Origin: Acidobacteriaceae bacterium | GTDB taxonomy: Bacteria; Acidobacteriota; Terriglobia; Terriglobales; Acidobacteriaceae | NCBI GenBank assembly: GCA_030041435.1 | Contig: JASHNW010000062.1 | Coordinates: 58,096 to 122,095, forward strand | Direction of reading: 5' to 3' | DNA: 64,000 bases | Shown here: positions 45,211 to 58,567 of the stretch, one piece after another | How positions within the stretch are numbered: the stretch's first letter is position 1 | How the letters are laid out: the number at the start of each line of letters is the position of its first letter | The notes under the pieces: model-generated | The model's input: only the letters and a program-made list of their open reading frames with translations | Database searches by the model: none | What the model was told of the DNA's origin: nothing | Made by a program: the position numbers and the translations under genes

Positions 45211-47451
45211 ATGCTGGAGTCCGGTTCGAAGTTCGCCGCCCATCTCTCGCCGGCGGTGCGAGAAGCCGTGGCGCATCACGCGGAGCGACGGCTTCCCGAG
45301 GCGGCGCGGTGCTGCCAGAGGGCACTCGCCGAAAATCCTGCGGATGCCGAGGCGCTGCTGCTGCTGGGGCTGCTGGCGCGGCAGATGGGCCAGCACGGTG
45401 CGGCGGTTGCGCTCAGTGCTGAGGCCGTGAGGCTGCGGCCGCAGAATCCGGGATTCCATCTGCTTCTCGCGCAGGCGAATCTGTCGGCAGGGAACGCGGA
45501 CCATGCTCGGGCCTCGTGCCGGCGCGCACTGGAGTTGAGTCCATCGTTGTCGTCTGCGTGGTGTTTGATGGGTGATTTGGCGTGGGCGCAAGGCGACCTG
45601 CCCGGAGCGCAGCAGGCATGGGAAACAGTGGCCCGGCTGGATGGGTCTTCAGCGCGCGCGGAGCGGTTGCTGGGGCACCTGCTGTGCCGCCAGGGCGAAT
45701 TCGAACAGGCCATCGAGGTTTATCGCAGAGGGCTCGGCAAAGCTCCTCACGATGCACTGCTGCACTACGCGCTGGGTGCGGCGCTGGCCGAACGAGGCAA
45801 CCTTGTCGAGGCAAAGTCGCACTGCGAAGAAGCGCTGCGGCTGCGGCCGAATTTTGCCGAGGCGCAGCTGAATCTCGGCAATCTACATTATGACGAGGGA
45901 CGGTTTGCGATCGCGGCGCTCTGCTACCGCAAAGCATTGGCGCTGCGGCCGGCCTATGCGAAGGCGTGGTGCAACCTGGGCAATGCGCTGCAGATGCTGG
46001 GTGGCGCGCGCGAGGCGGCGCGCTGCTATGAACGGACCCTGGCGCTGGACCCGCAGTTGGTGGCGGCGCAGCATAATCTGGGGAATGCTTTGATGGCGCG
46101 GCGGGATTTTCGCCGCGCGGAAGAATGCTTTCGCCGCAGTGTGGCCATGGATGAGACGCGGGCGGAGCACCACAGCAGCCTCGGCAACGCGCTCTTCCAG
46201 CAGCGCAGGAACGCCGAGGCAGAAGCATGCTACCGGCGCGCGCTCGCCCTGGACCCGCGCTACGCCATTGCCCATACGAACCTGGCCAATGTGCTCATGC
46301 GGCAGACCCGTCGCGAGGAGATGATTTGCCATTACGAGCGCGCGCTGCAGCTGGATCCTTCGAGCGCCGGCGGTCACTACAACCTGGCGCTCGCCTGTCT
46401 GCGCGAAGGCCGGTACAGCGAGGGGTGGGCTCATCACGAGTGGCGCTGGGATTTTCGCGAGCTGAAGCTGCGCCGCCGCAGGCTGGCCGTGCCGCAATGG
46501 CAGGGCGAGCCTCTCGGAGGAGAGACGATTCTGCTGCACGCGGAACAGGGGCTGGGAGACACGCTGCAGTTTGTGCGCTATGCGCCCCTGGTGACGGAGC
46601 GCGGCGGCCGCGTCATCCTCGAAGTACAATCGCGGCTGGCGCGGCTGCTCCGGGGAATGCCTGGCGTCGACCGCGTGGTTGTCCGCGGCGATCCGCTGCC
46701 CGAGATTGCGCGGCATTGCCCGCTCATGAGCCTGCCGCAGGCATTTGCAACGACGATCGATACACTTCCGCAGAGAATTCCCTATGTGCGCGCCGCGCCG
46801 CAGGAAGCGGCGGCTGCTTTTGCGCGCTGGCCGGGCGCCGGTCTGCGCATTGGAATCGCGTGGGCCGGCAATCCACAACACCGCAGCGATCGGCAGCGAT
46901 CGATGCCGCTGCGGGCGCTCGTTCCTCTGGCCGAGGTGCCGGGGATTACCTGGTTCTCCCTGCAGATGGGGCCGGCATGCGGACAGATGCCGGCGCTGGC
47001 GCGGAAGTTTTCCCTTGTCGATGCGTCTTCCGAAAGCCGTGATTTCGCCGAAACCGCGGCACTGCTGGCCACGCTGGATCTGGTGATCAGTGTGGACACC
47101 TCGGTAGCCCATTTGGCGGGCGCCATGGGGATCCCGCTCTGGGTGGTGCTGCCACAGTTTGCCGACTGGCGATGGATGGACGAGCGCGAAGATTCGCCCT
47201 GGTATCCAACCGCGCGGCTGTTTCGGCAGCCGACCGGGGACGATTGGGCGGCGCCAGTGGAGCGAATGCGAGACGAGCTGAGGAAGATCGCGCAACCGCG
47301 GGGCAGTGGCGCCTCGGATCTCGATCGACGCACGCATGGACGCTTGGAAGCGGAGGATGCACAGCCGTCGGACTATGCGAACATGCTGCCGCAGGCTGCG
47401 TCACAGGCAATGCGCGTGACGGGTTGCGGTGCGGGAATGGGGCCGGGGTAA
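45211..47451 (+). CDS. TPR-repeat protein with C-terminal GT9/GT41-like glycosyltransferase domain
   Basis: The 746-residue product has about ten TPR repeats (residues about 20-400; for example AAVALSAEAVRLRPQNPGFH, LGNALQMLGGAREAARCYER), then a glycosyltransferase-like domain. Motifs include GETILLHAEQGLGDTLQFVR, GLRIGIAWAGNPQHRSDRQR and LDLVISVDTSVAHLAGAMG with PLWVVLPQFADWRW, typical of GT9/heptosyltransferase-type GT-B folds linked to TPR proteins. It might modify proteins or glycans. The acceptor is unknown. The 3' end overlaps the convergent methyltransferase gene by 79 bp, and the last residues are Gly-rich as a consequence. Confidence 0.88.
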   Translation: MLESGSKFAAHLSPAVREAVAHHAERRLPEAARCCQRALAENPADAEALLLLGLLARQMGQHGAAVALSAEAVRLRPQNPGFHLLLAQANLSAGNADHARASCRRALELSPSLSSAWCLMGDLAWAQGDLPGAQQAWETVARLDGSSARAERLLGHLLCRQGEFEQAIEVYRRGLGKAPHDALLHYALGAALAERGNLVEAKSHCEEALRLRPNFAEAQLNLGNLHYDEGRFAIAALCYRKALALRPAYAKAWCNLGNALQMLGGAREAARCYERTLALDPQLVAAQHNLGNALMARRDFRRAEECFRRSVAMDETRAEHHSSLGNALFQQRRNAEAEACYRRALALDPRYAIAHTNLANVLMRQTRREEMICHYERALQLDPSSAGGHYNLALACLREGRYSEGWAHHEWRWDFRELKLRRRRLAVPQWQGEPLGGETILLHAEQGLGDTLQFVRYAPLVTERGGRVILEVQSRLARLLRGMPGVDRVVVRGDPLPEIARHCPLMSLPQAFATTIDTLPQRIPYVRAAPQEAAAAFARWPGAGLRIGIAWAGNPQHRSDRQRSMPLRALVPLAEVPGITWFSLQMGPACGQMPALARKFSLVDASSESRDFAETAALLATLDLVISVDTSVAHLAGAMGIPLWVVLPQFADWRWMDEREDSPWYPTARLFRQPTGDDWAAPVERMRDELRKIAQPRGSGASDLDRRTHGRLEAEDAQPSDYANMLPQAASQAMRVTGCGAGMGPG

Positions 47452-48317
47452 GGCTCGGGATCGGGTTCCGGTGCAGGGCCGGGAGCGGGATCCGGTTCCG
47501 GCTGCGGCGGAAGACCGGGAATAGGTTCGGGGCCTGGGTCGATGCCGGGAACAGTTCCTGGCGCTGCTGCGAAATGTGAATCTGTGGCCACTTCTTTTTG
47601 GGAGTGCCGGGGGCAGAGTGCGGTTGTCCCGCAGTATTGCCACAGTTCTGAGGTGAGCAATCCGCCCAACGAGATGCGCGACGCTGTGTTAGTCCATCCC
47701 GCGGTGGCAAGCAGATCGCGCCACGGTGGAATCTGGCGAACGCGCAGGCCGGTGAGCAGATGGAAGGCTGCATACAGGGAGGCGATGAGCCATTTCCCAA
47801 CCTGGGTGCGAAGCTGGCCGGCAGCGGGAACCTGGAATTCTGAGACCAGCCAGACCGCTTCGGGCGCGAGGCGGGAGCGAACGCGCGCGATGAGCTGTTC
47901 GGCTTCGGCGCTGGTCAGGCAGTCGAGAAAGAAATGCGTGACGACAAGATCGTAGCCGTCGGCCGACGGTAAGGAAGCGCGTGCGTCTGCGCACAGAGTG
48001 GTGAGGCGGTTCTGCGCGCCGATGCTGGCCGCGCGTCCAAATAGGAGCCGCAGCATGGCAGGGCTGGCGTCGACAGTATCGGCCCTGAGCTGCGGGTTGG
48101 CGGCGAGCAGACGCGCGAGAAATCGCCCGTCGCCATCGCCAATGACCAGAGCGCGGCGGCGCGACAGCAGCGCGGGCAGATGGTAGAAGCGGCAGCGCTC
48201 CAGCAGGGAGCCGAAGGAGGCATACTCCATCGGCCGGTACAGGCGCGCGACGCGATCGAAGCAGGGGACGGGGCCGCAACCCGGAACTGAACCGGAGCGT
48301 GGAACGGATTGGGTCAT
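47373..48317 (-). CDS. Class I SAM-dependent methyltransferase with Pro-rich tail
   Basis: The 314-residue product has a Rossmann methyltransferase at residues about 25-200: ALVIGDGDGRFLARLLA (motif I), DTVDASPAMLRLL, LTTLCADARASL and YDLVVTHFFLDCLT. The C-terminus (about 250-300) is an unusual Pro/Glu-rich run of PEPxPGP-type repeats (DPGPEPIPGLPPQPEPDP and on). The substrate is unknown. It overlaps the membrane-protein gene upstream by 4 bp (ATGA) and the convergent TPR gene by 79 bp. The Pro tail and the Gly-rich TPR end are read from opposite strands of the same DNA. Confidence 0.82.
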   Translation of the reverse strand: MTQSVPRSGSVPGCGPVPCFDRVARLYRPMEYASFGSLLERCRFYHLPALLSRRRALVIGDGDGRFLARLLAANPQLRADTVDASPAMLRLLFGRAASIGAQNRLTTLCADARASLPSADGYDLVVTHFFLDCLTSAEAEQLIARVRSRLAPEAVWLVSEFQVPAAGQLRTQVGKWLIASLYAAFHLLTGLRVRQIPPWRDLLATAGWTNTASRISLGGLLTSELWQYCGTTALCPRHSQKEVATDSHFAAAPGTVPGIDPGPEPIPGLPPQPEPDPAPGPAPEPDPEPYPGPIPAPQPVTRIACDAACGSMFA

Positions 48318-49195
48318 CCGCGCCAGCGGATGAGGAGCAGAAGCGGCGTGAGCAGCGCGGCGTCGGCCAGGATGCGCTGCGCGAGGGACGAGGGGGCGGC
48401 GCGTTCAGCGGATCGGTGCGCCTCGCGGCTGGAATCGCGATCGAGCGCGAAGAGCAGCAGAGCGGAGGCCAGCGCGGCGGTAGCGAGGCCGAGAACGCCG
48501 GCATGTTGCCCCCCGGCGAGCGCCATGAGCGCGGCGGCTGCGGCGGCCACGCAAAGGGCCAGAGTGGAGACAGGCGACCATCGCCGGCCGGTTTCGGATT
48601 TCTCCCAGACATGAATTGCGGCGCAGTTGAGCCAGCACAGGGCCGCGAAGAGCAGCGCGAGCACTGCAAGGTCCGCGCGAGCCGGACCCGACTGCGACCA
48701 GGCGGGCACGATGCAGGCGAGGGCGAAGACCAGGCCGACCACCAGCTCACGTGGAAAACGCAGGCGGACGGAGGGCAGATGCACGACGGCGAAATACACC
48801 ATCGCGACAGCGAAGATGACGGTATCTTCGCGCCGAGCCGCGGGCGGCATGAAAAAGATGAAAACTGCCAGGGAAATCGCCGCAGCACAACCCGCAACCA
48901 GCAATGCCCGCCGGTGGCGGGCGTGAAAAAAGTGGCGCTCGCGCAGGTCGTTGCGCGTGCCGCCGTCGCGGCCATCGAGGAGACGATCGGCAATATACAG
49001 AAGCCAGGTGCCGATGCCGAGCACGGCGAGTGAGGCCGGGGCGGCAGCAACGCGCACTGCGCGCGCAAAACTCCACGCCCACAGCACCGCCACGGTGGGG
49101 GCATCGAAGCTCAGCAGGTGCCAATAGACCGGGAAGGCAGCCACGAGGGACCGCCGGCGCTCGCCAACACCGGGGATAGACGCGGCAACAGCCAC
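48314..49195 (-). CDS. Polytopic membrane protein, possibly UbiA-like
   Basis: The 293-residue product starts at GTG 49195 with only a poorly placed GGAG. About eight hydrophobic helices are visible. LLYIADRLLDGRDGGTRNDL in the first third resembles the Asp-rich substrate loop of UbiA prenyltransferases (N/D-x-x-x-D), but the second Asp motif is not clear. It follows the TonB-receptor gene by 9 bp on the same strand and overlaps the methyltransferase start by 4 bp, so all three are probably cotranscribed. Function is not established. Confidence 0.6.
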   Translation of the reverse strand: MAVAASIPGVGERRRSLVAAFPVYWHLLSFDAPTVAVLWAWSFARAVRVAAAPASLAVLGIGTWLLYIADRLLDGRDGGTRNDLRERHFFHARHRRALLVAGCAAAISLAVFIFFMPPAARREDTVIFAVAMVYFAVVHLPSVRLRFPRELVVGLVFALACIVPAWSQSGPARADLAVLALLFAALCWLNCAAIHVWEKSETGRRWSPVSTLALCVAAAAAALMALAGGQHAGVLGLATAALASALLLFALDRDSSREAHRSAERAAPSSLAQRILADAALLTPLLLLIRWRG

Positions 49196-49204
49196 AGCTC
49201 CATT

Positions 49205-51508
49205 TTAGAAGTGAAAGTGGTAACGAACTTCTCCGTAAATCTGACGTGGATCATTTTCGTGGAAACCGCCGAAGGTGAGGCTGTTGTCGAGCAGGACGCG
49301 GGTGTTGACAACGTTGGTGGCATTCGCGTCGATGGTCCAGTTTTCCCCGAACGATTTGCCCAGCGCCAAATCGCAGGTGGTGTGGCCGGGTAGATACGCG
49401 TTGGTGTATGGCGACGGCGGATTGCGGTAGCCGTTCGAAAAGCCCGAGCCGTAATAGACGTTCACTGAGCCGTAAGCGTGCGCGGGCAGGCGGCCGTCGA
49501 AGCCGGCGTTCAGCGTATTGCGCTGATCGTGGTCGAGCGCGGTGTAGCCGGGCGGGACCGCGCATGCCGGGGAATCCGGCGGAGAGCAGATGAGGCCGCC
49601 GGTAACCGGCCCGCGCTGCTGCGCAAGCTGGTTGGAGTAGGCGAGGTGCGCCTGTCCATAGCGCCACGACCGAGGGGAGCGGATGGTCAGTTCCCACGCG
49701 TTGATCTTTGCGCCCTGCACCGTGATGGGGATGAAGATGTCGGACTCGCCGATGTTGCTGTGATCGAGGAAGTCGTTGGCGCGGGTTTCGAAGGTGTCGG
49801 CATCCAGCAGCCAGCCGCGCCAGGGAATCGCCAGGCCGAACTGGTGCTCCTCGTCGCGTTCGCCGTGCAGCGGGACAAAGCTGGTGTTGGTGCCATGTGC
49901 ATAGGCCAGGGCCGGGCCGGTGAGGCTGGTGAGCGGCGGCGGCTGGTAGAAGTGGCCGTAGAAGCCGCGCAGGACCCAGTTGAGTTTCGGAATCTGCACG
50001 GCCATGCCGATGCGCGGGTAGATGGCGTTCTCATTGAGTGTGGCCTGGAAGTGCGTCTGACGCTCGCCGCCGATCAGCGTCAGCCACGTGGTGGGCCGGT
50101 AGTTGTCTTCGACGAACGCCTCTTCCACGCCGCCGATGACCACCGAGGACTCAGAGAAACTGGGTGCGCTGCCGTCGTTGAAGATGGCGCCGAAGAGATC
50201 GTTCTCGTGCTGCGCGTAGCCGTAAAGGCCGGCCTTGAAGAAATTGCGCGCGATGCTGGTGGAGTAATACGCCTGCCCCCCGCTGTACTGGCCGGTTTGC
50301 CGCGCTGTCGTCGCCGTGGGCAGATCGTCTGCGCCGGGTTGATAGTCGGCGTCGTTGTAGTGATAGAAGGGGGAAATCTCAAAGAGCGTCGAGGGCGTGA
50401 GCGTGTGGATCCAGGAGAAGGTGGAGTAGCCGTCCGTCTCGTGTTCACCGTCGCGCAGGCCCGATGAGTCGTAGAGCTGGTTTTCCCAGTCGACCGGGTC
50501 GGGGTCGAAGGGGATCTGATAGTAGTCGGTGCGGAGTTGCCCGGCGAAGCGCAGCTGATCCCGAGGATCCTGGTTGAAGATGAGCGAAGCGAAGCCGCCG
50601 TAGCCGTTCTCCGCGTCGTGCGTTGCCTTCTCGATCGGGGCCATCAGGCCGTAGCCGGAGCGGTTGCCGTTGAGGGCTGCGAACCAGGCAAAGCGCTCGG
50701 AGTGGTCGCCGAGGTTCAGCTGGCTGTCCGTCTGGTAGAAATTCCCGAACGTGGTGACGAATTCGCCTTCACGGTTCATCTCGAAGCCGGTGCGGGGGAT
50801 GACGTTGAACATGCCGTAGGTGCGGTCGCCGAGGTCGGCGTTATAACTGCCGCGGTCGATCTCCACGGTGTCGATGTCGCGCGGGTCGACCTGCGGGCCG
50901 ACGTTGCTGGCGATGTTGGTGTTCGGGATAGGCACTCCGTCGATCATCCAGTTCAGCTCGTGGCCGCCGCGCATGTGCAGCATGTCGTGGCTCATGTAGG
51001 CTCCGGGAGTGAAATCGGTAATCATGGCCAGCGAGTTGGTGCGGTCGGCGCCGGGCGTCTGCATGATGTCGGAGCGGTTGATCATGGTGGTGGGGGTGAC
51101 GGAGTCGGGAGTGGCCTCCTGCGGCTCGGCGTGCACTTCGGCGGATTGCTGAACGGAGGCAACCGCAAGGGGGAAATGCAGAATATCCGCGCCGTTCGAG
51201 GTCACCGTCAGGGTCTGCTGCAGATCGGCGAAGCCGGGGCTGGAGACGTGGATAACATACACCCCAGGCGGGACGGCGAGGAGGGAGAAGTAGCCCTCCG
51301 CATTGCTCGTTGTGGAGAAGCGAAGATCGGAGCCGGCGGCACGCAGGACGATGTGCGCTCCCTCGATGGGGCGATGCGTAGGATCGTGAACAATGCCCTG
51401 GACCTGGCCGAGGACAGCGGCGCGGGCGAGCGGGGCGGCAAGCAGGCAGACGAGCAGGCATGCGAGCAGGCAAGGTAGCGCCGGCGCGAGAGAAAGCCTT
51501 CGCGGCAT
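49205..51508 (-). CDS. TonB-dependent receptor with carboxypeptidase-regulatory-like N-domain
   Basis: The 767-residue product (ATG 51508, AGGAG upstream) has a signal peptide to about residue 31, an Ig-like regulatory domain (GQVQGIVHDPTHRPIEGAHI, GVYVIHVSSPGFADLQQTLT), a plug (RTNSLAMITDFTPGAYMSHD, MLHMRGGHELNWMIDGVPIP) and a 22-strand barrel ending in VRYHFHF with terminal Phe. Such receptors take up metal chelates or glycans across the outer membrane, powered by TonB. Placed downstream of a Cys/His-rich small protein and a copper-RiPP cluster, a metal-related ligand is plausible but unproven. Confidence 0.92.
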   Translation of the reverse strand: MPRRLSLAPALPCLLACLLVCLLAAPLARAAVLGQVQGIVHDPTHRPIEGAHIVLRAAGSDLRFSTTSNAEGYFSLLAVPPGVYVIHVSSPGFADLQQTLTVTSNGADILHFPLAVASVQQSAEVHAEPQEATPDSVTPTTMINRSDIMQTPGADRTNSLAMITDFTPGAYMSHDMLHMRGGHELNWMIDGVPIPNTNIASNVGPQVDPRDIDTVEIDRGSYNADLGDRTYGMFNVIPRTGFEMNREGEFVTTFGNFYQTDSQLNLGDHSERFAWFAALNGNRSGYGLMAPIEKATHDAENGYGGFASLIFNQDPRDQLRFAGQLRTDYYQIPFDPDPVDWENQLYDSSGLRDGEHETDGYSTFSWIHTLTPSTLFEISPFYHYNDADYQPGADDLPTATTARQTGQYSGGQAYYSTSIARNFFKAGLYGYAQHENDLFGAIFNDGSAPSFSESSVVIGGVEEAFVEDNYRPTTWLTLIGGERQTHFQATLNENAIYPRIGMAVQIPKLNWVLRGFYGHFYQPPPLTSLTGPALAYAHGTNTSFVPLHGERDEEHQFGLAIPWRGWLLDADTFETRANDFLDHSNIGESDIFIPITVQGAKINAWELTIRSPRSWRYGQAHLAYSNQLAQQRGPVTGGLICSPPDSPACAVPPGYTALDHDQRNTLNAGFDGRLPAHAYGSVNVYYGSGFSNGYRNPPSPYTNAYLPGHTTCDLALGKSFGENWTIDANATNVVNTRVLLDNSLTFGGFHENDPRQIYGEVRYHFHF

Positions 51509-51610: not shown

Positions 51611-51988
51611 TTACAGCGCGAGTGGCGAAGGAGGGCCGCGCTTCTGGCGCGCGCGGTGGAAAGAGATGCGATAGCCGGACTCGGCTTCGCCGATGATGGC
51701 AGCCGGGCCGGCGGTGGCAGCCTCGGCAGCGCTCCGCGTATGCGCGCCGAAAGCGTGCGGCAGCATGAGCACCGGTCCGGCCCACGGAGCGTACGGGCAT
51801 TTGGCCGAAACGGAGCGATCGTGCGACGGGACGTTCACCGTCGTCATGCCCGCCATTGAGCAGTGGTGCGCGCCATTGCGGCGGCAGCAGGCAGGCAGCG
51901 ATGCCTCATCCGGTCCCGAGGCAAATGCAGGCGCGATCAGCGGCAGGCCGAATCCGATCACCAGCAGCATGGCCAGCGCGCGTCGCAT
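51611..51988 (-). CDS. Small exported Cys/His/Met protein, possible copper-related
   Basis: From ATG 51988 the product has 125 residues; an ATG at 52021 is in frame. A signal peptide (MRRALAMLLVIGFGLPLIAP, cleaved near FAS) precedes ASLPACCRRNGAHHCSMAGM, a Cys-Cys...His-His-Cys-x-Met cluster, then a further Cys (SAKCPYAP) and a basic end RISFHRARQKRGPPSPLAL. I recall this pattern (CCRR-G-HHC and ending QKRGPP) in acidobacterial exported proteins next to TonB receptors. The residues suit soft-metal binding such as copper. It ends 102 bp before the receptor start. Confidence 0.65.
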   Translation of the reverse strand: MRRALAMLLVIGFGLPLIAPAFASGPDEASLPACCRRNGAHHCSMAGMTTVNVPSHDRSVSAKCPYAPWAGPVLMLPHAFGAHTRSAAEAATAGPAAIIGEAESGYRISFHRARQKRGPPSPLAL

Positions 51989-52040
51989 GAGACATGGTAG
52001 CATCGGGCCCGCGCACCGCACGAAATGTGCCAGTTGCCGG

Positions 52041-53189
52041 CTACTGCAGCGTCGTCGCGACGCCCTGCTGCACCAGGGGATAGACGCCCTTCTTTTCGGT
52101 TGTCAGGGTCAGGCGCTGGTAATCGGAGGCCGATGCGTCTTTGCTGGGGACGAAGGTCAGCGTGTACTCATTTTTGATCAGACCTTCTTCCTTCCCGTAG
52201 GCTTCGTCAGCCTTGTCGCGCTTGCCTTCCACCATGTAGCCGCCGGTCGCTGAGCAGAGTCGGATCAGGTTTGCCCGGCCGTCGACATGCGGTTGCTCCG
52301 AGGGCTGCTGACCGCCGCGCCGCCCCCCACCGGGATAACCGCCTCCGCCGCCCGGGTAGCCTCCGCCGGGAAAACCTCCGCCCTGGCCGCCGCGCCGCCC
52401 GTTGTTCTGGTTGGGCCGGGCCTCCTCTTCTTCCGCTTTGTAGTAAATGGCGAAGATGGCGGTATGGGTGTTCTGCGCCGCCTCGATGGCGTCCTCCATC
52501 GTCTCTTTGCTGTCATGGTCGACGCCGTCGCTGATCAGGACGATGATGTGCTGGCCGGGCTGTTTCTTCATCACCTCGGTGGTGGCGAGATAGATGGCAT
52601 CGTAAAGCGTGCCGCCGCTGCTGCCTCCCCAGTGCGGCGCGCCGGAGCTCTGATCGCTGCTGCTGCCGTCACTGCCGCTCTGGTTGCCGAATTGGGGCGA
52701 CCCCATCTGGTTGATCGCATCGTGCAGCTTGTTCTGCGCGCTGGTCGGGTCGGCCAGCAGATCCACCTCGGCGGCATAGTCGATGACGAAGAACGTGTTC
52801 TGCGAGCCGGGCAGCGTGTGGTCGACAAAGTGGACGCTGGCCAGGCGCTCGTCGCCAAGCTCGGTATGCATAGCTGAACCCGTCTCACCAACGATCCCGA
52901 AAGCAATCGGGGAGGGCGCCGCCGGGCCAAACGACTGGATGGTCTGCGCTGCGCCGTTGTCGGTCAGCTTCAGATCGGCTGCGGTGAAGCCCTTTACGGC
53001 ATTGCCCTTGTCGTCGACGACGAATACCGGCAGCGTGAGGGCGCCGAGCGCCGAGTTGACCACCGGCGCGCTGCTCTGAGCGGGCGCCGCAGGTGCAGCC
53101 TGGGCTGCGGCGTGCGTGGACGAAAAGGGCAGCAGCGCCGCGAGGGCGGCCGCCGGAAGACAACTGCGCAGAACGGAATGAATCTTCAT
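52041..53189 (-). CDS. Secreted VWA-domain protein (acidobacterial VWFA-related type)
   Basis: From ATG 53189 the product has 382 residues: signal peptide to about residue 28, then a linker, LPVFVVDDKGNAVKGFTAAD and LKLTDNGAAQTIQSF, and a VWA domain with HIIVLISDGVDHDSKETMED. The MIDAS motif D-x-S-x-S is replaced by FGIVGETGSAMH, so metal binding is doubtful. A Gly-rich insert (FPGGGYPGGGGGYPGGG) sits at about 275-310. Proteins with this opening (a LxVxVxDxxGxxVxGL-like strand before VWA) are abundant in Acidobacteria. Same strand as, and 65 bp after, doxX. Confidence 0.85.
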   Translation of the reverse strand: MKIHSVLRSCLPAAALAALLPFSSTHAAAQAAPAAPAQSSAPVVNSALGALTLPVFVVDDKGNAVKGFTAADLKLTDNGAAQTIQSFGPAAPSPIAFGIVGETGSAMHTELGDERLASVHFVDHTLPGSQNTFFVIDYAAEVDLLADPTSAQNKLHDAINQMGSPQFGNQSGSDGSSSDQSSGAPHWGGSSGGTLYDAIYLATTEVMKKQPGQHIIVLISDGVDHDSKETMEDAIEAAQNTHTAIFAIYYKAEEEEARPNQNNGRRGGQGGGFPGGGYPGGGGGYPGGGRRGGQQPSEQPHVDGRANLIRLCSATGGYMVEGKRDKADEAYGKEEGLIKNEYTLTFVPSKDASASDYQRLTLTTEKKGVYPLVQQGVATTLQ

Positions 53190-53254
53190 GGTTTGCCTGG
53201 ATATCGTTGAACCATCCATTAGACGGGTGGACCCACGCCGGGGTTTCGCGCCCC

Positions 53255-53773
53255 TCAGCATGGATCTTTGCGATTTTGTCCGCCGCCGCGCCGGAAAAAC
53301 CAGTAGTCCAGCGAAAAACGCCCGGGCCCGAAGATCAGGATCAGCAGCGAGGCGAACAGGAAAGTGTACGGGTCGGCGTTGTAGAACTTGCCGGGGTCGC
53401 TGAGGATGGAGCCGAGCGCGTCGCGGTCCGACAGGACATACGCGCCAATCATATCGCCCGAGAGAAACAGGCCGGTGATGCGCGAGCCGAGGCCGAGGAT
53501 GAGGAGAATGCCGCCGACCAGCTCCAGCAGCGAGATGATGACGCAGGTTGGGCCAGGCAGGGGAACGCCGAGGCTCGAGAAGAACTGCGTTGCGTTGTCC
53601 AGGTGATGCAGGCGGCCCCAGCCGGACTGGGAGAATTGCCATCCCCAGTAAAGCCGGACGAGAAGGAGGAAAGGCGACTGCAGTGCGGCGGAGCCTCGCT
53701 GGAAGCGGTAGTAGATGGTGGACAGTTTTCCCGCGGATTTTTTGGTGGAGCCGGGTGTGGCGGACGTGCTCAT
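53255..53773 (-). CDS. DoxX-family membrane protein
   Basis: The 172-residue product has four membrane helices of the DoxX type: LQSPFLLLVRLYWGWQFSQS (first helix with R-x-x-x-G), PTCVIISLLELVGGILLILG, and SRITGLFLSGDMIGAYVLSD. DoxX proteins are redox-associated; one is a constant companion of HvfABC/bufferin operons (the D component). Its start overlaps the stop of a 44-codon ORF (ATGA). It probably belongs to the precursor-peptide operon with hvfB and hvfC. Confidence 0.9.
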   Translation of the reverse strand: MSTSATPGSTKKSAGKLSTIYYRFQRGSAALQSPFLLLVRLYWGWQFSQSGWGRLHHLDNATQFFSSLGVPLPGPTCVIISLLELVGGILLILGLGSRITGLFLSGDMIGAYVLSDRDALGSILSDPGKFYNADPYTFLFASLLILIFGPGRFSLDYWFFRRGGGQNRKDPC

Positions 53774-53904
53774 AGGAATGCCTTTCGTGCGTGTCCGGCT
53801 AAAGGGTCTGCGGCGATTCCGGTCGAGGAGGCAGGGTGGCCCTGCGCCAAATATGCAAAGACGAGGCCGGTGCGCCCGTCAGCGATCTGATCGAGGATGG
53901 CCAT
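53770..53904 (-). CDS. 44-residue ORF between hvfC and doxX
   Basis: ATG 53904 lies 2 nt after the hvfC stop and the TGA overlaps the doxX ATG, so translation could be chained through it. The product starts MAILDQIADGRTGLVFAYLA, like the first helices of ankyrin-type proteins, but stops after a Pro/Ala-rich stretch. It may be a truncated remnant or a small linking protein. No own ribosome site is seen. Confidence 0.4.
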   Translation of the reverse strand: MAILDQIADGRTGLVFAYLAQGHPASSTGIAADPLAGHARKAFL

Positions 53905-53906
53905 TG

Positions 53907-54860
53907 CTATCGCGGGGAATCGACGGACTGCGTGAACCACCCCAGCATAGACCAGGTGGCAAAGGCTTCCTGCAAAAAGGCGGTGCGGTCGTCTTCGCGG
54001 ATTCCGCTCGCGGCGAAGGCGGACTCGATCGCTTCGCCCAGCGGCTTCCCTTCCATCAGCGCCGCGAGCAGCCGGAATTCCTCCGGCAACAGGGGCTTGT
54101 ACCAGACGGAATTCTCGTGGCGATGGACGGCCAAATGCATCGTCTTCGGCGCCAGCGCGGCCACATGGCGAACGTGCCGGCGCTTGCGTGCTGTGCTGGC
54201 ATTGTTCGTGGAAGAGGCGCTGCTTCCGTCCTCGGTGCGCACCTGCAGCAGTAGATCGTCGACCGGATAGGAGAGCGCGAGCAGGCGCAGATGCGGCTGA
54301 AGATGAAGCACCGAATTCTCGTCGAGGTTCACCAGCGCTTCGGCGTTTAGGCGCGGCTTCTCTTCGGAGTCGAAGGCTTCGATGTGCGCCCACTCGAGGC
54401 GCACCATGTCGAGCGCCAGCTGTACGTGGGGTTGAATGGTGCCAGGGTTGCGCTCGAGCCAGGACTCGAGCCGCGAGCCGAGGTTGCGCAGTGTGAACGA
54501 CTCGGAGGGGCAGTCGGTGAGGTAGGCGCGCATGAGCGCGTCGAATTTGGCTCGTCCGACGATGGCCAGCAGTCCGGGAAAGTCCTCCTCAAAGCACGTA
54601 TACAGACGGAACCAGTACTGGCGGTTGTAAATCTCGAGGCGCTCGAAGGAGGTAAGCCGGTCGTTGGGGCGGATGATGGCTTCCGCCTCGGCGCGGTTCG
54701 ATGTGCCGTCGCGGCGGCGGCGCGGCATGGTCTCAGCGCGGGTGAGCGGATGCATGACGGCAGCCGCCATGCGCCGCTGGATTTCCAGCAACTGACCCGC
54801 ACCCTCCCGCGCGGAATTGGATGGCGCGGAAGTGTGGTGCACCCGGCTCGTCGTGCTCAT
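53907..54860 (-). CDS. hvfC: HvfC/BufC-type DUF2063 partner of the MNIO enzyme
   Basis: From ATG 54860 the product has 317 residues; the frame is open further upstream inside hvfB. The N-terminal DUF2063 domain (LLEIQRRMAAAVMHPLTRAE, RLTSFERLEIYNRQYWFRLY, FEEDFPGLLAIVGRAKFDAL) is followed by a domain with SVLHLQPHLRLLALSYPVDD and RLLAALMEGKPLGEAIESAF. In HvfABC and bufferin systems this partner recruits the precursor to the MNIO enzyme. The ATG overlaps the hvfB stop (ATGA, 54857-54860). Confidence 0.9.
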   Translation of the reverse strand: MSTTSRVHHTSAPSNSAREGAGQLLEIQRRMAAAVMHPLTRAETMPRRRRDGTSNRAEAEAIIRPNDRLTSFERLEIYNRQYWFRLYTCFEEDFPGLLAIVGRAKFDALMRAYLTDCPSESFTLRNLGSRLESWLERNPGTIQPHVQLALDMVRLEWAHIEAFDSEEKPRLNAEALVNLDENSVLHLQPHLRLLALSYPVDDLLLQVRTEDGSSASSTNNASTARKRRHVRHVAALAPKTMHLAVHRHENSVWYKPLLPEEFRLLAALMEGKPLGEAIESAFAASGIREDDRTAFLQEAFATWSMLGWFTQSVDSPR

Positions 54861-55771
54861 TGGGCTGCTCCCGAAGTTTCGATCATCGACGATGCCGCGG
54901 CTTCCACGGCGGAAATCGCTGCGTGGGGCGAGGCTTCCACGGCCGCCTTCAGGAATTTGTTTGCCTTGAGCGCTTCGGCGTGGACTTCCTCGAAGCTGGG
55001 GATGTTGTCGTCCCATTCCAGCAGCGTGGCGGTGGGGCCGCAGCGCTCGATGGCGCGCGCGTAGAGACGCCAGACTGCCGGCAGGACGGGATGGTCGTGC
55101 GTGTCGAGAATGTACTTCTCGAACTTGCTGTGACCGGCGATGTGAATCTGCGCCACGCGATGCGGAGGGACGAAATTCACGTAGTCAAAGGGGTTGAAGT
55201 TGTGATTTTTCGAAGAGACGTAGATGTTGTTGACATCGAGCAGAATGCCGCAGTCGGCGCGCTCGACGACTTCGGTCAGAAACTCCCATTCGGTCATCTC
55301 AGAGGCGTGGAACTCGGCGTAGCTGGAGACGTTTTCGACGACCACGGGGACCTCGGTGAAGTCCTGAACCTGGCGGATCTTCCGCGCGGTCACCTCGACG
55401 GCTTCCCAGGTGTACGGCATAGGAAGGAGATCGTGGGTATAGCGGCCGTCGACCGATCCCCAGCAGAGATGATCGCTGAGCCACGGCGTTTTGGTGCGGC
55501 GGGCGAGAGCTTTCAGGCGCTTCAGGTGCTCGCGGCTGAGCGGGTCCACAGACCCGAAGTACATGGAGACGCCGTGCTGCACGACGCGGTATTGCTCGAG
55601 GATTTTGTCGAGAGTTTCGAGCGGCTTTCCGCCGTCGATCATGTAGTTTTCCGAGATGATCTCGAACCAGTCGACGACCGGCCGTCGGGTCAGGATGTGC
55701 TCGTAGTGCGGAATGCGCAGACCGATGCCTACGCCGTAGTCGGTGAATCCGTTGAAGCGGCTTGCGGGCAT
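54857..55771 (-). CDS. hvfB: MNIO (DUF692) enzyme, HvfB/BufB-like
   Basis: The 304-residue TIM-barrel product carries the DUF692 landmarks and metal-ligand positions: QHGVSMYFGSVDPLSREHL, SDHLCWGS, LLPMPYTWEAVE, VVVENVSSYAEFHASEM, GILLDVNNIYVSSKNHNFNP, QIHIAGHSKFEKYILDTHDH and LLEWDDNIPSFEEVHAEAL. These proteins use two or three iron ions to oxidise cysteines of a precursor peptide into heterocycles or other forms (MbnB, ChrH, BufB). ATG 55771 has an AGAGG site. Precursor gene hvfA is 1.0 kb upstream with one membrane-protein gene between. Confidence 0.93.
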   Translation of the reverse strand: MPASRFNGFTDYGVGIGLRIPHYEHILTRRPVVDWFEIISENYMIDGGKPLETLDKILEQYRVVQHGVSMYFGSVDPLSREHLKRLKALARRTKTPWLSDHLCWGSVDGRYTHDLLPMPYTWEAVEVTARKIRQVQDFTEVPVVVENVSSYAEFHASEMTEWEFLTEVVERADCGILLDVNNIYVSSKNHNFNPFDYVNFVPPHRVAQIHIAGHSKFEKYILDTHDHPVLPAVWRLYARAIERCGPTATLLEWDDNIPSFEEVHAEALKANKFLKAAVEASPHAAISAVEAAASSMIETSGAAQ

Positions 55772-55868
55772 CGTCTACCTCTCTCTCAACCCATTATGCC
55801 GAACGGTCGAGTGCCGGGGCGGGCACGGCCCGCGGTCCGTGCGATTCCGAAAATGGGCAGGCCTTGCA

Positions 55869-56693
55869 TCATCGATGCAGGGGAATGCCTCTGCCCAGCA
55901 CCAAAACAAACACCACCGTCACCGCCAGTCCGGCGCCGATCCAGGGCCAGCTCCTTCCAATGGGGTCGCCACTTCTCTCGGGCGTCGTCGCCTTCGGCAC
56001 GTAGTAGCGCATCCACAGCAATCCGCAATCCGCGCCGGCGGTTGCCGGGAGTGCCGAGAGAAGCACATATTGCAGCCCCATCGGATTCATGAGGCCGCCC
56101 AGTGTCGAGACAACAATGGCCGACAGATAGCTCGCCAGCGCCAGTTTCCAGTAGCGTGCGCGGTCGGCCAGGGGAACGCCCAGGTAGCGCACCACAGCCC
56201 CGCCGATGACCACCACCGCGCCCCAGTATGCGAAGACGCCTACAGCTACCAGCCCCATGCGCCATGCCAGGTGGGGATGCAGTCCATTAATCACGCCGGC
56301 CCAGTCGCCGAAGTTTGTCACGCCGGAGAAAAGGAAATAGCCGGATCCGCCGAAGAGATTGAATGCGCAGCACAACAGCAAAAAGAGGCGCGCAGGCACC
56401 GAGGCCCTCCTGAGCCCTTTGAGCAGCAGCCAAAACACTCCGGCTGCGGCCAGATTCACCAGCGTTCCTCCGGCATCCACCAGTTTGCTGTCGTAGGCGC
56501 TCGACCACGCGACTGTGGTCAGCAGCCCCTGCGGCGCAACCGTCATCAGCGCGATGCAGGCGTGACCCAGGCCTTCGTGCAGCACGTCGGAAAACATGAA
56601 GGCCACAGCGGCGATCGCGCACACCGTCAGCCGGTCGTCGCGCTGCTGCGTGGATGTCGTGTTTTCTATGCCGGAAGTGGCAGCGGCTGCCAT
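55869..56693 (-). CDS. Membrane protein with HExxxH motif between hvfA and hvfB
   Basis: The 274-residue product has about seven hydrophobic helices. After the first helix it contains FMFSDVLHEGLGHACIALMT, a HExxxH-type motif on a membrane helix, then LVDAGGTLVNLAAAGVFWLL in the next helix, and GDWAGVINGLHPHLAWRMGL later. The layout recalls M50 site-2-type membrane proteases, but the spacing is H-E-G-L-G-H rather than HExxH, so activity is uncertain. Position between precursor and modifying enzyme suggests a role in maturation, export or stress signalling of the peptide. No named family recognised. Confidence 0.65.
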   Translation of the reverse strand: MAAAATSGIENTTSTQQRDDRLTVCAIAAVAFMFSDVLHEGLGHACIALMTVAPQGLLTTVAWSSAYDSKLVDAGGTLVNLAAAGVFWLLLKGLRRASVPARLFLLLCCAFNLFGGSGYFLFSGVTNFGDWAGVINGLHPHLAWRMGLVAVGVFAYWGAVVVIGGAVVRYLGVPLADRARYWKLALASYLSAIVVSTLGGLMNPMGLQYVLLSALPATAGADCGLLWMRYYVPKATTPERSGDPIGRSWPWIGAGLAVTVVFVLVLGRGIPLHR

Positions 56694-56744
56694 GTTCGCA
56701 ACGCTCGCACTGCGAGTTCATCGTGCTGTGAAGTTTCTGCGCTC

Positions 56745-56782
56745 AAAAGCAGAAGGGCCGCGCGCAGGGCGGCCCTCTCTGC
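56745..56782 (-). terminator. Attenuator-like terminator behind hvfA
   Basis: On the minus strand, GCAGAGAGGGCCGC (56782-56769) pairs with GCGGCCCTTCTGC (56761-56749) with one bulged base, followed by TTTT (56748-56745). It sits 11 bp past the hvfA stop and 52 bp before the next gene, so it could let only some transcripts continue. Confidence 0.65.
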
Positions 56783-56792
56783 AGGGGTTTGG

Positions 56793-57089
56793 TTAACCAG
56801 GCATCTTGGAGCCGTCAGTGGCGCAGCCGCCTTTGCCCTTGCAGCTGTTCTTGCCTTTGCAGCCGTTGTCGCCGCTCTTGCATCCGCCCTGACCTTTACA
56901 GTCATTCTTGCCTTTACAGGAGTGTTTGGGGGCTTTGGCCTGGGGCACCGTGCTCAGCGATGTCTTGCCCGCCTTCAGGATGGGCGCGGTACCGGACGTG
57001 TTCACAACGGCGGCGTGCATGGCTGTCGCGCCGCTGAGCAGCCCGGAAACAGCCGCAGCGACCATCGCGGTCTTCATTGAGTGCATCAT
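56793..57089 (-). CDS. hvfA: HvfA/bufferin-like Cys-rich precursor peptide
   Basis: The 98-residue product starts at ATG 57089, 7 nt after a full GGAGGA site. Residues 1-26 are a signal peptide (ATAMHA). A spacer of about 30 residues precedes a C-terminal Cys block with six Cys at 58, 64, 70, 77, 83 and 89. It is two copies of a 3-Cys module: CKGKNDCKGQGGC and CKGKNSCKGKGGC, joined by KSGDNG. This pattern (regular Cys in Lys/Gly-rich sequence after a signal peptide) is typical of HvfA/bufferin precursors. MNIO enzymes convert such Cys to copper-binding heterocycles. Confidence 0.85.
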   Translation of the reverse strand: MMHSMKTAMVAAAVSGLLSGATAMHAAVVNTSGTAPILKAGKTSLSTVPQAKAPKHSCKGKNDCKGQGGCKSGDNGCKGKNSCKGKGGCATDGSKMPG

Positions 57090-57376
57090 CAGTCATTCCT
57101 CCATTGATTTGCGCAGGTCCAGACCGGGCGCGGGGATTTTGGGGATCGAAGCGCCAGGCGGGTGACCTTGCGGTGCCGATTAGACTACAGAACTTAATAC
57201 GCATCGCGCTACCCCGCCGGATGTTTTTTCTCCGTATTCATGGCCACTGGACGCGCAGGTGTACGAAATTGGACAGGTTCCGTGGATGATCGGGAGATTG
57301 TAACGCTTTGCATGCAGCATTTGGGCGGCGCACAACCCTCGTGATACATCTCGAACCGAGGAGCCTGACAGCATTC

Positions 57377-58567
57377 ATGGAGAGTACTTCGTCCTCTCAG
57401 CCACGCAGTCGAAAGGCCACCGTTGCCCTGCGTTTCGTGCTGATGATCGGCGTCGTCAGTTTCTTTGCCGATTTCACCTACGAGGGCTCGCGCAGCATTA
57501 CCGGTCCGTTTCTTGCCACGCTGGGCGCCAGCGGCGCGGTGGTCGGCGTCGTGGCCGGACTGGGCGAGTTACTCGGCTACGGACTGCGCTTCTTCTCCGG
57601 CCGGGTAAGCGAGCGGACGCGGCAGTTCTGGCCCATGACGCTGTTCGGATACATCGTGCAGATGGCGGCGGTGCCGGCCCTCGCGCTGGCCGGCAACTGG
57701 CCAGTGGCTGCCGTCCTGATCGTGCTCGAGCGCGTAGGCAAGGCCATCCGCAATCCTCCGCGCGACGTGATGCTGTCGCACGCAGGCCAGGAAATGGGCA
57801 TCGGCTGGGCCTTCGGGCTGCACGAAGGCCTGGATCAGGCCGGTGCGCTGGTGGGGCCGCTGGTGCTGGCGGCCATCCTCGCGCATCGCGGCCAATACAG
57901 GATCGCGTTTGCGACGCTGCTGATTCCGGCGTGCATCACGGCGGTGCTGATCGCGGTGACGAAGTTTCTCTATCCGCGGCCGGAGGATCTGGAGCCGCAT
58001 TCTCCGGCAATTCAGGCTGCCGGGCTGGGACGGTCGTTCTGGATCTATCTGATCGGCGCGGCGCTGGTGGCTGCGGGCTTTGCGGACTATCAGCTGATTG
58101 CGTTCCACCTGCAGAAACACGGCGTCGCTTCGACAGTGTGGATTCCGATCTTTTATTCGATCGCCATGGCGACCAGCGGCGCGGGGTCTCTCCTGTTCGG
58201 CAGGCTCTTTGACCGCTTCGGCGTCACGGTGCTCATCCCGCTCACCTTTCTCTCCATCGCGTCCGCGCCGCTGGTCTTTCTCGGCGGATTCGATATGGCC
58301 CTGGCGGGCGCGGCACTCTGGGGTCTGGGCATGGGCGTCCACGAATCGATCATTCCGGCTGCGGTGGCGGCCATGGTGCCCCCCGCGCGGCGGCCCTCGG
58401 CCTATGGCCTGTTTGCTGCGGCCTACGGAATTTTCTGGTTTCTGGGCAGCGCCGCGATCGGCTTCCTCTACGACGTGTCAGTCCAGGCGGCTGTGTCCTT
58501 CTGCGTGCTGACGGGGGCGGCGTCGCTGCCCTTCTTCTTCGCGGTGCGGAGACGGATGGTGGCCTGA
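57377..58567 (+). CDS. MFS transporter
   Basis: The product has 396 residues from ATG 57377; upstream in-frame codons are non-hydrophobic. About twelve helices in two halves; the first half has MIGVVSFFADFTYEGSRSIT, then the A-motif-like loop GLRFFSGRVSERTRQFWPMT and ERVGKAIRNPPRDVMLSHAG, the second has GSLLFGRLFDRFGVTVLIPL. It resembles MFS proteins of unknown substrate in Acidobacteria. It is divergent from hvfA across 287 bp, in which I see no convincing promoter for either gene. Confidence 0.88.
   Translation: MESTSSSQPRSRKATVALRFVLMIGVVSFFADFTYEGSRSITGPFLATLGASGAVVGVVAGLGELLGYGLRFFSGRVSERTRQFWPMTLFGYIVQMAAVPALALAGNWPVAAVLIVLERVGKAIRNPPRDVMLSHAGQEMGIGWAFGLHEGLDQAGALVGPLVLAAILAHRGQYRIAFATLLIPACITAVLIAVTKFLYPRPEDLEPHSPAIQAAGLGRSFWIYLIGAALVAAGFADYQLIAFHLQKHGVASTVWIPIFYSIAMATSGAGSLLFGRLFDRFGVTVLIPLTFLSIASAPLVFLGGFDMALAGAALWGLGMGVHESIIPAAVAAMVPPARRPSAYGLFAAAYGIFWFLGSAAIGFLYDVSVQAAVSFCVLTGAASLPFFFAVRRRMVA

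Follow-up and report, generated by a model that had tools for sequence, protein, structure and literature searches.

Does the bufferin-type copper peptide locus of an Acidobacteriaceae bacterium form one functional island with the TonB-dependent receptor gene that follows it, or do two separately controlled gene sets stand side by side? The locus lies in a 64-kb window, the whole stretch of DNA that was analysed. An earlier note had described it as a copper-handling island in which an enlarged HvfABCD/bufferin core is coupled to outer-membrane transport, and its open reading frames were located on the minus strand where it had placed them. The genes run from 57089 to 49205 in the following order:

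57178..57189, minus strand: conserved element TGTAGTCTAATC, about 100 nt 5' of the precursor gene, a candidate promoter or operator
56793..57089, minus strand: BufA2-like (bufferin-2) precursor, 98 aa, with six cysteines in HSCKGKNDCKGQGGCK..NGCKGKNSCKGKGGC
55869..56693, minus strand: HExxxH membrane protein, tentatively a divergent site-2-protease-like fold, accessory and not core
55775..55909, minus strand: 44-codon open frame that begins with TTG, rejected as a gene
54857..55771, minus strand: MNIO (DUF692) bufferin maturase BufB (PF05114, 359 bits; NF050167)
53907..54860, minus strand: DUF2063 partner protein BufC (PF09836, 53.7 bits, cut-off 27.2)
53255..53773, minus strand: DoxX membrane protein (PF07681, 60.5 bits, cut-off 23.6)
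53219..53247, minus strand: ECF-sigma-like promoter element GAAAC-N17-CGTCTAA, 5' of the VWA gene
52041..53189, minus strand: VWA-domain protein of the acidobacterial VWFA family (TIGR03436, 117.6 bits, cut-off 81.25)
51611..51988, minus strand: CruR-like leader protein with an export-signal-like start, CCRRNGAHHC, C64 and a C-terminal RGPP
49205..51508, minus strand: TonB-dependent-receptor-like outer-membrane protein (CarboxypepD_reg PF13620 and Plug PF07715)

The first genes belong to a bufferin system. The maturase exceeded the NF050167 BufB cut-off (350.4 vs 310 bits) and fell below that of HvfB (NF003818, 249.5 vs 360 bits), so that by the curated cut-offs it is BufB, not HvfB, and only the bufferin half of the core's earlier name stood. 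Its sequence kin in the PDB are 3bww, 8hci and MbnB 7dz9, and its gene shares the previously described ATGA overlap with the DUF2063 gene. Inspection of the precursor sequence revealed a hydrophobic N-terminus, in agreement with the signal-like start claimed for it, and all six cysteines are present in every aligned precursor of the genus (n=12). The NCBIfam BufA2 profile NF050166 scored the window precursor at 34.4 bits (E 1.9e-8), which is below the cut-off of 60 yet is its sole meaningful family match, and we therefore label it bufferin-2-type. From what is published on bufferins, the precursor cysteines would be oxidised by BufB together with BufC to copper-binding thiooxazoles, and the modified bufferin would buffer excess periplasmic copper; the operon thus likely yields a periplasmic peptide that sequesters copper. 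Upstream of the precursor, GTAGTCTAAT was found at a distance of 96-163 nt in 10 of the 12 genus genomes, with one match across the window against 0.01 expected. The element differs by one letter in L065, its exact form is absent before both precursors of G001 (L063), and it occurred at none of 15 precursor loci of other genera.

Two additions to this core fared differently. The HExxxH protein lies between precursor and enzyme, as had been observed, but it does not belong to the core: we rejected it as a core member because only 2 of the 12 genus genomes (the window and G003) carry the gene at the buf locus, and its other loci contain no bufferin genes and few recurrent neighbours. At E 1e-30 or better the gene is present in 41 of the 398 genomes of the taxonomic family, and it occurs together with BufB in only 2 of the 14 family genomes that have both, going by the BufB places listed. 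The protein matched no Pfam or NCBIfam family; H39, E40 and H44 are invariant in 25/25 aligned sequences. The top structural neighbours by Z of its model are site-2 proteases (M50), namely 3b4r and SpoIVFB 8vjl, which suggests, tentatively, a divergent site-2-protease-like fold, although these proteases possess an HExxH zinc motif and the window protein has HExxxH instead. It is probably an optional protease-like accessory. Two pairs of homologues on contigs of equal length (P0005/P0135, 216,757 nt; P0031/P0126, 5,722 nt) may point to more loci that carry the HExxxH gene. The 44-codon frame, once thought to link the genes, was dropped as a gene, given its TTG start, its lack of any Pfam or NCBIfam match and the mere 16 nt that separate the HExxxH gene from bufB in G003.

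Downstream of DoxX, we take the VWA gene as 52041-53189, since translation from the ATG at 53189 gives a signal-like N-terminus. The element GAAAC-N17-CGTCTAA precedes it at the same position and with the same spacer length in 12/12 genus genomes, while the letters of the spacer are unlike among these genomes; we tentatively take it to be of ECF type. It matched once across the window against 0.02 expected. When spacers of 16-18 were allowed, the pattern matched 1-3 times per genome and the same pattern read backwards 0-5 times; the string is thus not rare genome-wide, and what supports the element is its fixed place and spacer. It is absent 5' of the VWA genes in L115 and L131. The VWA, leader and receptor genes are therefore predicted to form a separate unit with its own promoter, and read-through of the bufferin operon transcript past DoxX into this set may occur.

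The small exported CC/HHC protein, for which an ATG at 51988 gives the extent 51611-51988 (a GTG at 52021 is a possible alternative start), carries RGPP five residues before its stop. Among the leaders read from loci, which leave out L069 since its leader gene runs off the contig end, CCR...C was present in 30/30 and a C-terminal R[G/A]PP likewise in 30/30 (29 RGPP, 1 RAPP). Their Cys/His region is invariant, with a methionine often next after it, and an alignment of 17 of the 30 shows little further conservation between the motifs. Database searches extended this picture: all 120 listed homologues, out of 3488 matches, have CCR..H.C and RGPP, the latter five residues before the stop in 100 of the 120. 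The window leader contains no CXXC, and any CXXC was found in 10 of the 120 listed homologues. The DUF2946 profile scored the window leader at 16.7 bits, below its cut-off of 23.7, and matched 8 of 17 scanned leaders with E values no higher than 1, the best being 6.7e-6; a precomputed PF11162 assignment is attached to 7 of the 120, and homologue P0195 carries the name DUF2946 from its source. By these features the protein resembles CruR, a copper-sensing arrest-peptide leader; as CruR's CXXC is lacking, we call it CruR-like, not CruR.

The leader is paired with a receptor in other genera too. The 39 leader matches comprised 11 at the genus locus (the window and G002-G011), one in G001 and 27 others, and neighbourhoods were fetched for G001 and for 19 of the 27 others. 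In these 20 neighbourhoods, the next downstream gene on the same strand encodes a receptor-type barrel in 19 and a PepSY_TM protein in one. Thirteen of the 19 barrels are near-full-length kin of the window receptor (46-73% identity) and six were assigned by Pfam, and a CusF-SCO1 protein follows two of the leader-paired receptors. Within the genus, the G009 receptor is just 54% identical to that of the window. No sequence match for the window receptor was found in the PDB, and the family profile search listed no OprC-type match for it. Homology, together with the CusF-SCO1 and PepSY_TM neighbours elsewhere, supports an independent copper link for the leader-receptor pair. In the gap between the two genes, measured with receptor starts guessed from alignments, C exceeds G in 18 of 23 loci, which is weakly rut-like. 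The window shows a hairpin over the receptor ribosome site (CTCCT..AGGAG), and L064 and L070 show part of one; as a general CutF-style feature it was rejected, being absent from most other loci folded.

Taken together, these data lead us to favour, with moderate confidence, a locus of two adjacent gene sets, namely a bufferin operon and a VWA-leader-receptor set behind a second predicted promoter. Both are likely copper modules with opposite predicted responses, in which bufferin would serve excess and the receptor scarcity. Under the CruR model (Roy 2022), the C-terminal RGPP of the nascent leader would stall the ribosome; in low copper the stall would let transcription continue into the receptor gene, and copper on the leader cysteines would free the stall, so that expression would end short of the receptor. 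The leader would thus likely hold the receptor on in copper scarcity and off in plenty. A detoxifying metallophore operon and an acquisition operon, both likely, would then stand side by side, apparently controlled apart. We regard as a long shot the fuller rheostat in which bufferin sponges excess copper, the CCR..HxC/RGPP nascent-chain sensor opens the receptor only in scarcity and the receptor re-imports the copper-loaded bufferin.

The strongest competitor, which we nevertheless judge rather unlikely, is that the neighbours are accidental, with a bufferin operon beside an Acidobacteriota receptor of the ordinary kind and a leader that responds to some other signal, for instance secretion state or a different metal. 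Leader genes often occur where no bufferin genes are near (of the 398 family genomes, 241 have a leader and 136 a BufB), their sensor cysteines are unlike CruR's CXXC, and non-copper genes too are preceded by RAPP/RGPP leaders (PMC12992588, available text); however, the CusF-SCO1 and PepSY_TM genes that accompany some leaders, the invariant Cys/His site and the DUF2946 likeness all argue for copper. A single coupled island, in which bufferin is exported, the receptor re-imports copper-bufferin and all genes respond together, appears improbable. The shared strand, the mostly short gaps, the gene order that recurs among the genus genomes wherever contigs reach and the copper-linked kin of both halves speak for it, but the genus genomes are collinear over about 36 kb, well past the bufferin locus, and synteny inside the genus alone is thus no proof of a functional link. 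Maturase and leader lie less than 20 kb apart in 11/11 genus genomes with both listed, whereas in the listed places, many of them on separate contigs, this held for none of the 64 genomes outside the genus that have both (for the leader, these places are 150 matches from 123 of the 241 genomes that have one). The VWA set also has its own promoter-like element throughout the genus, and according to the available text of PMC12914433, Bordetella pertussis with an inactivated bufferin operon did not show the phenotype caused by losing the copper receptor that CruR controls. The proposed coupling of peptide synthesis with the receptor accordingly found no support, nor did the island as a single unit, although its bufferin core and a copper-linked CC/HHC-receptor pair held. 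The conserved flanking genes that the earlier note had suggested looking for were found in part: VWA, leader and receptor follow the bufferin genes in the genus, but the leader does not do so outside it in the listed places, and the HExxxH gene is seldom there. It is very improbable that the CC/HHC protein, instead of being a regulatory leader, acts in the periplasm by binding copper or as a chaperone for the receptor, as its export-signal-like start and invariant Cys/His region might suggest, since a chaperone would not need an invariant RGPP near its stop and little is conserved between its motifs.

If the two-set reading holds, a likely function is now attached to a large, mostly unnamed leader family, which points to copper-gated receptors widely in Acidobacteriota. 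Open-licence literature searches on CruR/DUF2946 listed no paper recognisably dealing with this acidobacterial family, and an open-licence search for Acidobacteri and bufferin had soil-ecology papers among the matches listed.

Comparison with known systems places both sets. HvfABCD/oxazolin of Haemophilus has MNIO, DUF2063 and DoxX-type partners in common with the window; however, the cut-offs of HvfB, HvfC and HvfX are missed (249.5/360, 39.8/142 and 52.1/80 bits) and the window precursor is without EGKCG repeats. The closer likeness is to bufferin-2 clusters, with which the window shares an exported six-Cys precursor, MNIO, DUF2063 partner and DoxX in order (Antoine 2025, PMC12452194, available text). 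According to the same text, these clusters have extra conserved genes in extremely low proportions only, whereas in this genus the VWA, leader and receptor genes come next and HExxxH is inserted in 2/12; neither 'Acidobacteri' nor 'TonB' occurs in the main text of that paper. In the RAPP/RGPP arrest-peptide survey (PMC12992588), which takes in Acidobacteriota among other phyla, small secreted proteins with a C-terminal RGPP likewise stand 5' of TonB receptors, and the leader's cysteine site is not mentioned in its available text. The CruR-TonB transporter operon of Bordetella (Roy 2022, PMC9426467, available text) shares a small exported leader, a Cys motif, a C-terminal R-A/G-P-P and the receptor next. 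There, DUF2946 genes head operons with TonB transporters, PepSY_TM and Sco, and the PepSY_TM or Sco partners recur at leader loci here; the main text of that paper does not contain 'Acidobacteri'. Those putative operons start with the DUF2946 gene, while here the VWA gene precedes the leader, and CruR has CXXC and RAPP where the window leader has CCR..HxC, one later Cys and RGPP. As a likely natural CruR variant without CXXC, this leader makes the question of copper-sensing cysteines on the ribosome testable.

The open reading frames of the earlier note were present on the minus strand of the window, where the following features were distinguished:

47373-49195 (-), directly behind the receptor gene: a methyltransferase and an uncharacterised protein assigned to no Pfam family, found in only some genomes of the genus
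49205-51508 (-): TonB-dependent-receptor-like protein
51611-51988 (-): CC/HHC protein, the leader
52041-53189 (-): VWA protein with a Gly-rich insert and a metal-site motif that looks degenerate (ETGSA in place of the expected DxSxS)
53255-57089 (-): core of precursor, MNIO maturase, DUF2063 partner and DoxX
55869-56693 (-): HExxxH protein, between precursor and bufB
57308-58567 (+): divergent MFS transporter, whose upstream region is shared with the precursor in 8 of 10 whole-core genus relatives

The MNIO, DUF2063 partner and DoxX proteins matched PF05114, PF09836 and PF07681 (Pfam), and the MNIO scored 350.4 bits against the NCBIfam model NF050167 (MNIO_BufB; cut-off 310). The HvfB, HvfC and HvfX models of NCBIfam did not reach their cut-offs; thus, of the proposed HvfABCD/bufferin identity, the bufferin part stands and HvfABCD does not. 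In the NCBIfam and Pfam scan, the sole meaningful match of the precursor was BufA2 (NF050166), at 34.4 bits and below the cut-off of 60; its six cysteines were preserved in all 12 aligned genus precursors. The MNIO could be aligned to the DUF692 structures 3bww and 8hci and to MbnB. Tandem precursor genes, seen at no other genus locus, precede bufB in G001 (contig C59, locus L063: 3764-4057 and 5145-5432, bufB orientation). Elsewhere, precursors carried four (L083, L090), five (L087) or seven (L078) cysteines, and those of L086 (G080) and L088 (G088), from another family of the class, carried 12 as a duplicated six-Cys unit.

BufB exceeded its cut-off in 28 of the 100 related genomes searched and, across the family, in 136 of 398. 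Of 12 loci compared from the family's other genera (L074-L085), most kept the order precursor-MNIO-DUF2063-DoxX; L074 and L075 are short contigs ending within the core, DoxX is relocated in L083, and the precursor search gave no match in L082. The VWA, leader and receptor genes were at the expected place in none of these 12 loci, where the sole receptor match was a weak fragment about 7 kb off on the opposite strand (L079). Within the genus, DoxX-VWA-CC/HHC was retained in all 10 whole-core relatives (G002-G011), with the receptor in 9, the G007 contig stopping inside the CC/HHC gene. In the eleventh, G001, the core contig stops in bufB and a separate contig starts in DoxX, followed by VWA-CC/HHC-receptor. 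As a control, the genus proved collinear over about 27.5-63.8 kb of the window, gyrA included, with a patchy exception at 45.2-49.2 kb; gene order within the genus should therefore not be over-read.

The HExxxH gene, also assigned to the island, occurred at the bufferin locus only in the window and G003, and at no other genus locus showing the precursor-bufB junction; G007 carries a 33% relative elsewhere. Its homologues are common (1256 database matches), and the other 30 loci examined, some of them short, contained no bufferin genes. Because the window and G003 copies fell within one supported clade (37 rows, support 98/95), one old insertion followed by losses is possible. The nearest structures to its AlphaFold2 model (pLDDT 84.8) were, at weak similarity, the site-2 proteases 3b4r and SpoIVFB. 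The protein is probably an optional protease-like accessory.

The earlier note regarded the whole locus as one coupled copper island. Among the matches listed, maturase and leader were less than 20 kb apart in all 11 genus genomes with both, and in 0 of 64 other genomes with both. In these 64, the 14 closest same-contig pairs among the matches listed were at least 32 kb apart, and many other pairs were split over different contigs. In B. pertussis, inactivating the bufferin operon did not reproduce the phenotype of losing the CruR-controlled receptor (PMC12914433). On these grounds we prefer a reading as two neighbouring copper modules, predicted to respond in opposite ways, to that of a single coupled system; the copper roles of the genes in this organism are inferred.

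Between DoxX and VWA, GAAAC-N17-CGTCTAA was found in 12 of 12 genus genomes, always with a spacer of exactly 17 of varying letters. It had no second match in the window or the fetched loci of 11 relatives (11 hits in 313,810 bases); genome-wide, with spacers of 16-18, 8 of 12 genomes had no other match and the remaining four had 2-3 in all. Since the reversed pattern, used as a control, gave 0-5 matches per genome, rarity is no argument for the element; its fixed place and fixed spacer are. It was absent before the VWA genes of loci L115 and L131. It resembles the consensus of an ECF-sigma promoter, so that the VWA set may be controlled separately. A different conserved element, GTAGTCTAAT, lies 96-163 nt ahead of the precursor gene in 10 of 12 genus genomes. 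Read-through from the bufferin operon into the VWA set is possible.

In 20 leader neighbourhoods, one from G001, the next same-strand downstream gene encoded a receptor-type barrel in 19 and a PepSY_TM protein in one; a CusF-SCO1 protein followed the receptor at two. G045, of another genus, also has VWA-leader-receptor, with its own bufB some 246 kb away. These observations suggest that leader and receptor are an independent copper-linked pair, which in this genus adjoins the bufferin genes. The PepSY_TM protein (L117:6757-8184) has a stretch rich in Met and His, which hints at copper binding. The window's genome has a second leader-receptor pair (contig C27, 7667-10555), on a short contig without bufferin genes.

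The CC/HHC homologues have in common CCR..HxC, a single Cys after it, RGPP near the C-terminus and an export-signal-like start, which those translations that begin too late do not show. A C-terminal R[G/A]PP was present in 30 of 30 homologues read from loci (one being RAPP); among the matches listed, 120 of 120 database homologues had CCR..H.C and RGPP, with RGPP placed five residues before the end in 100 of them. DUF2946 matched 8 of 17 homologues scanned (best E 6.7e-6). This evidence leads away from the reading in the earlier note. CruR of Bordetella belongs to DUF2946 and is a nascent-chain copper sensor, its C-terminal RAPP and CXXC controlling a downstream TonB transporter (PMC9426467), and RGPP has likewise been a query in searches for arrest peptides (PMC10987492). 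Since it lacks CXXC and falls below the DUF2946 cut-off, the window protein is called CruR-like here rather than CruR; it carries RGPP where CruR has RAPP.
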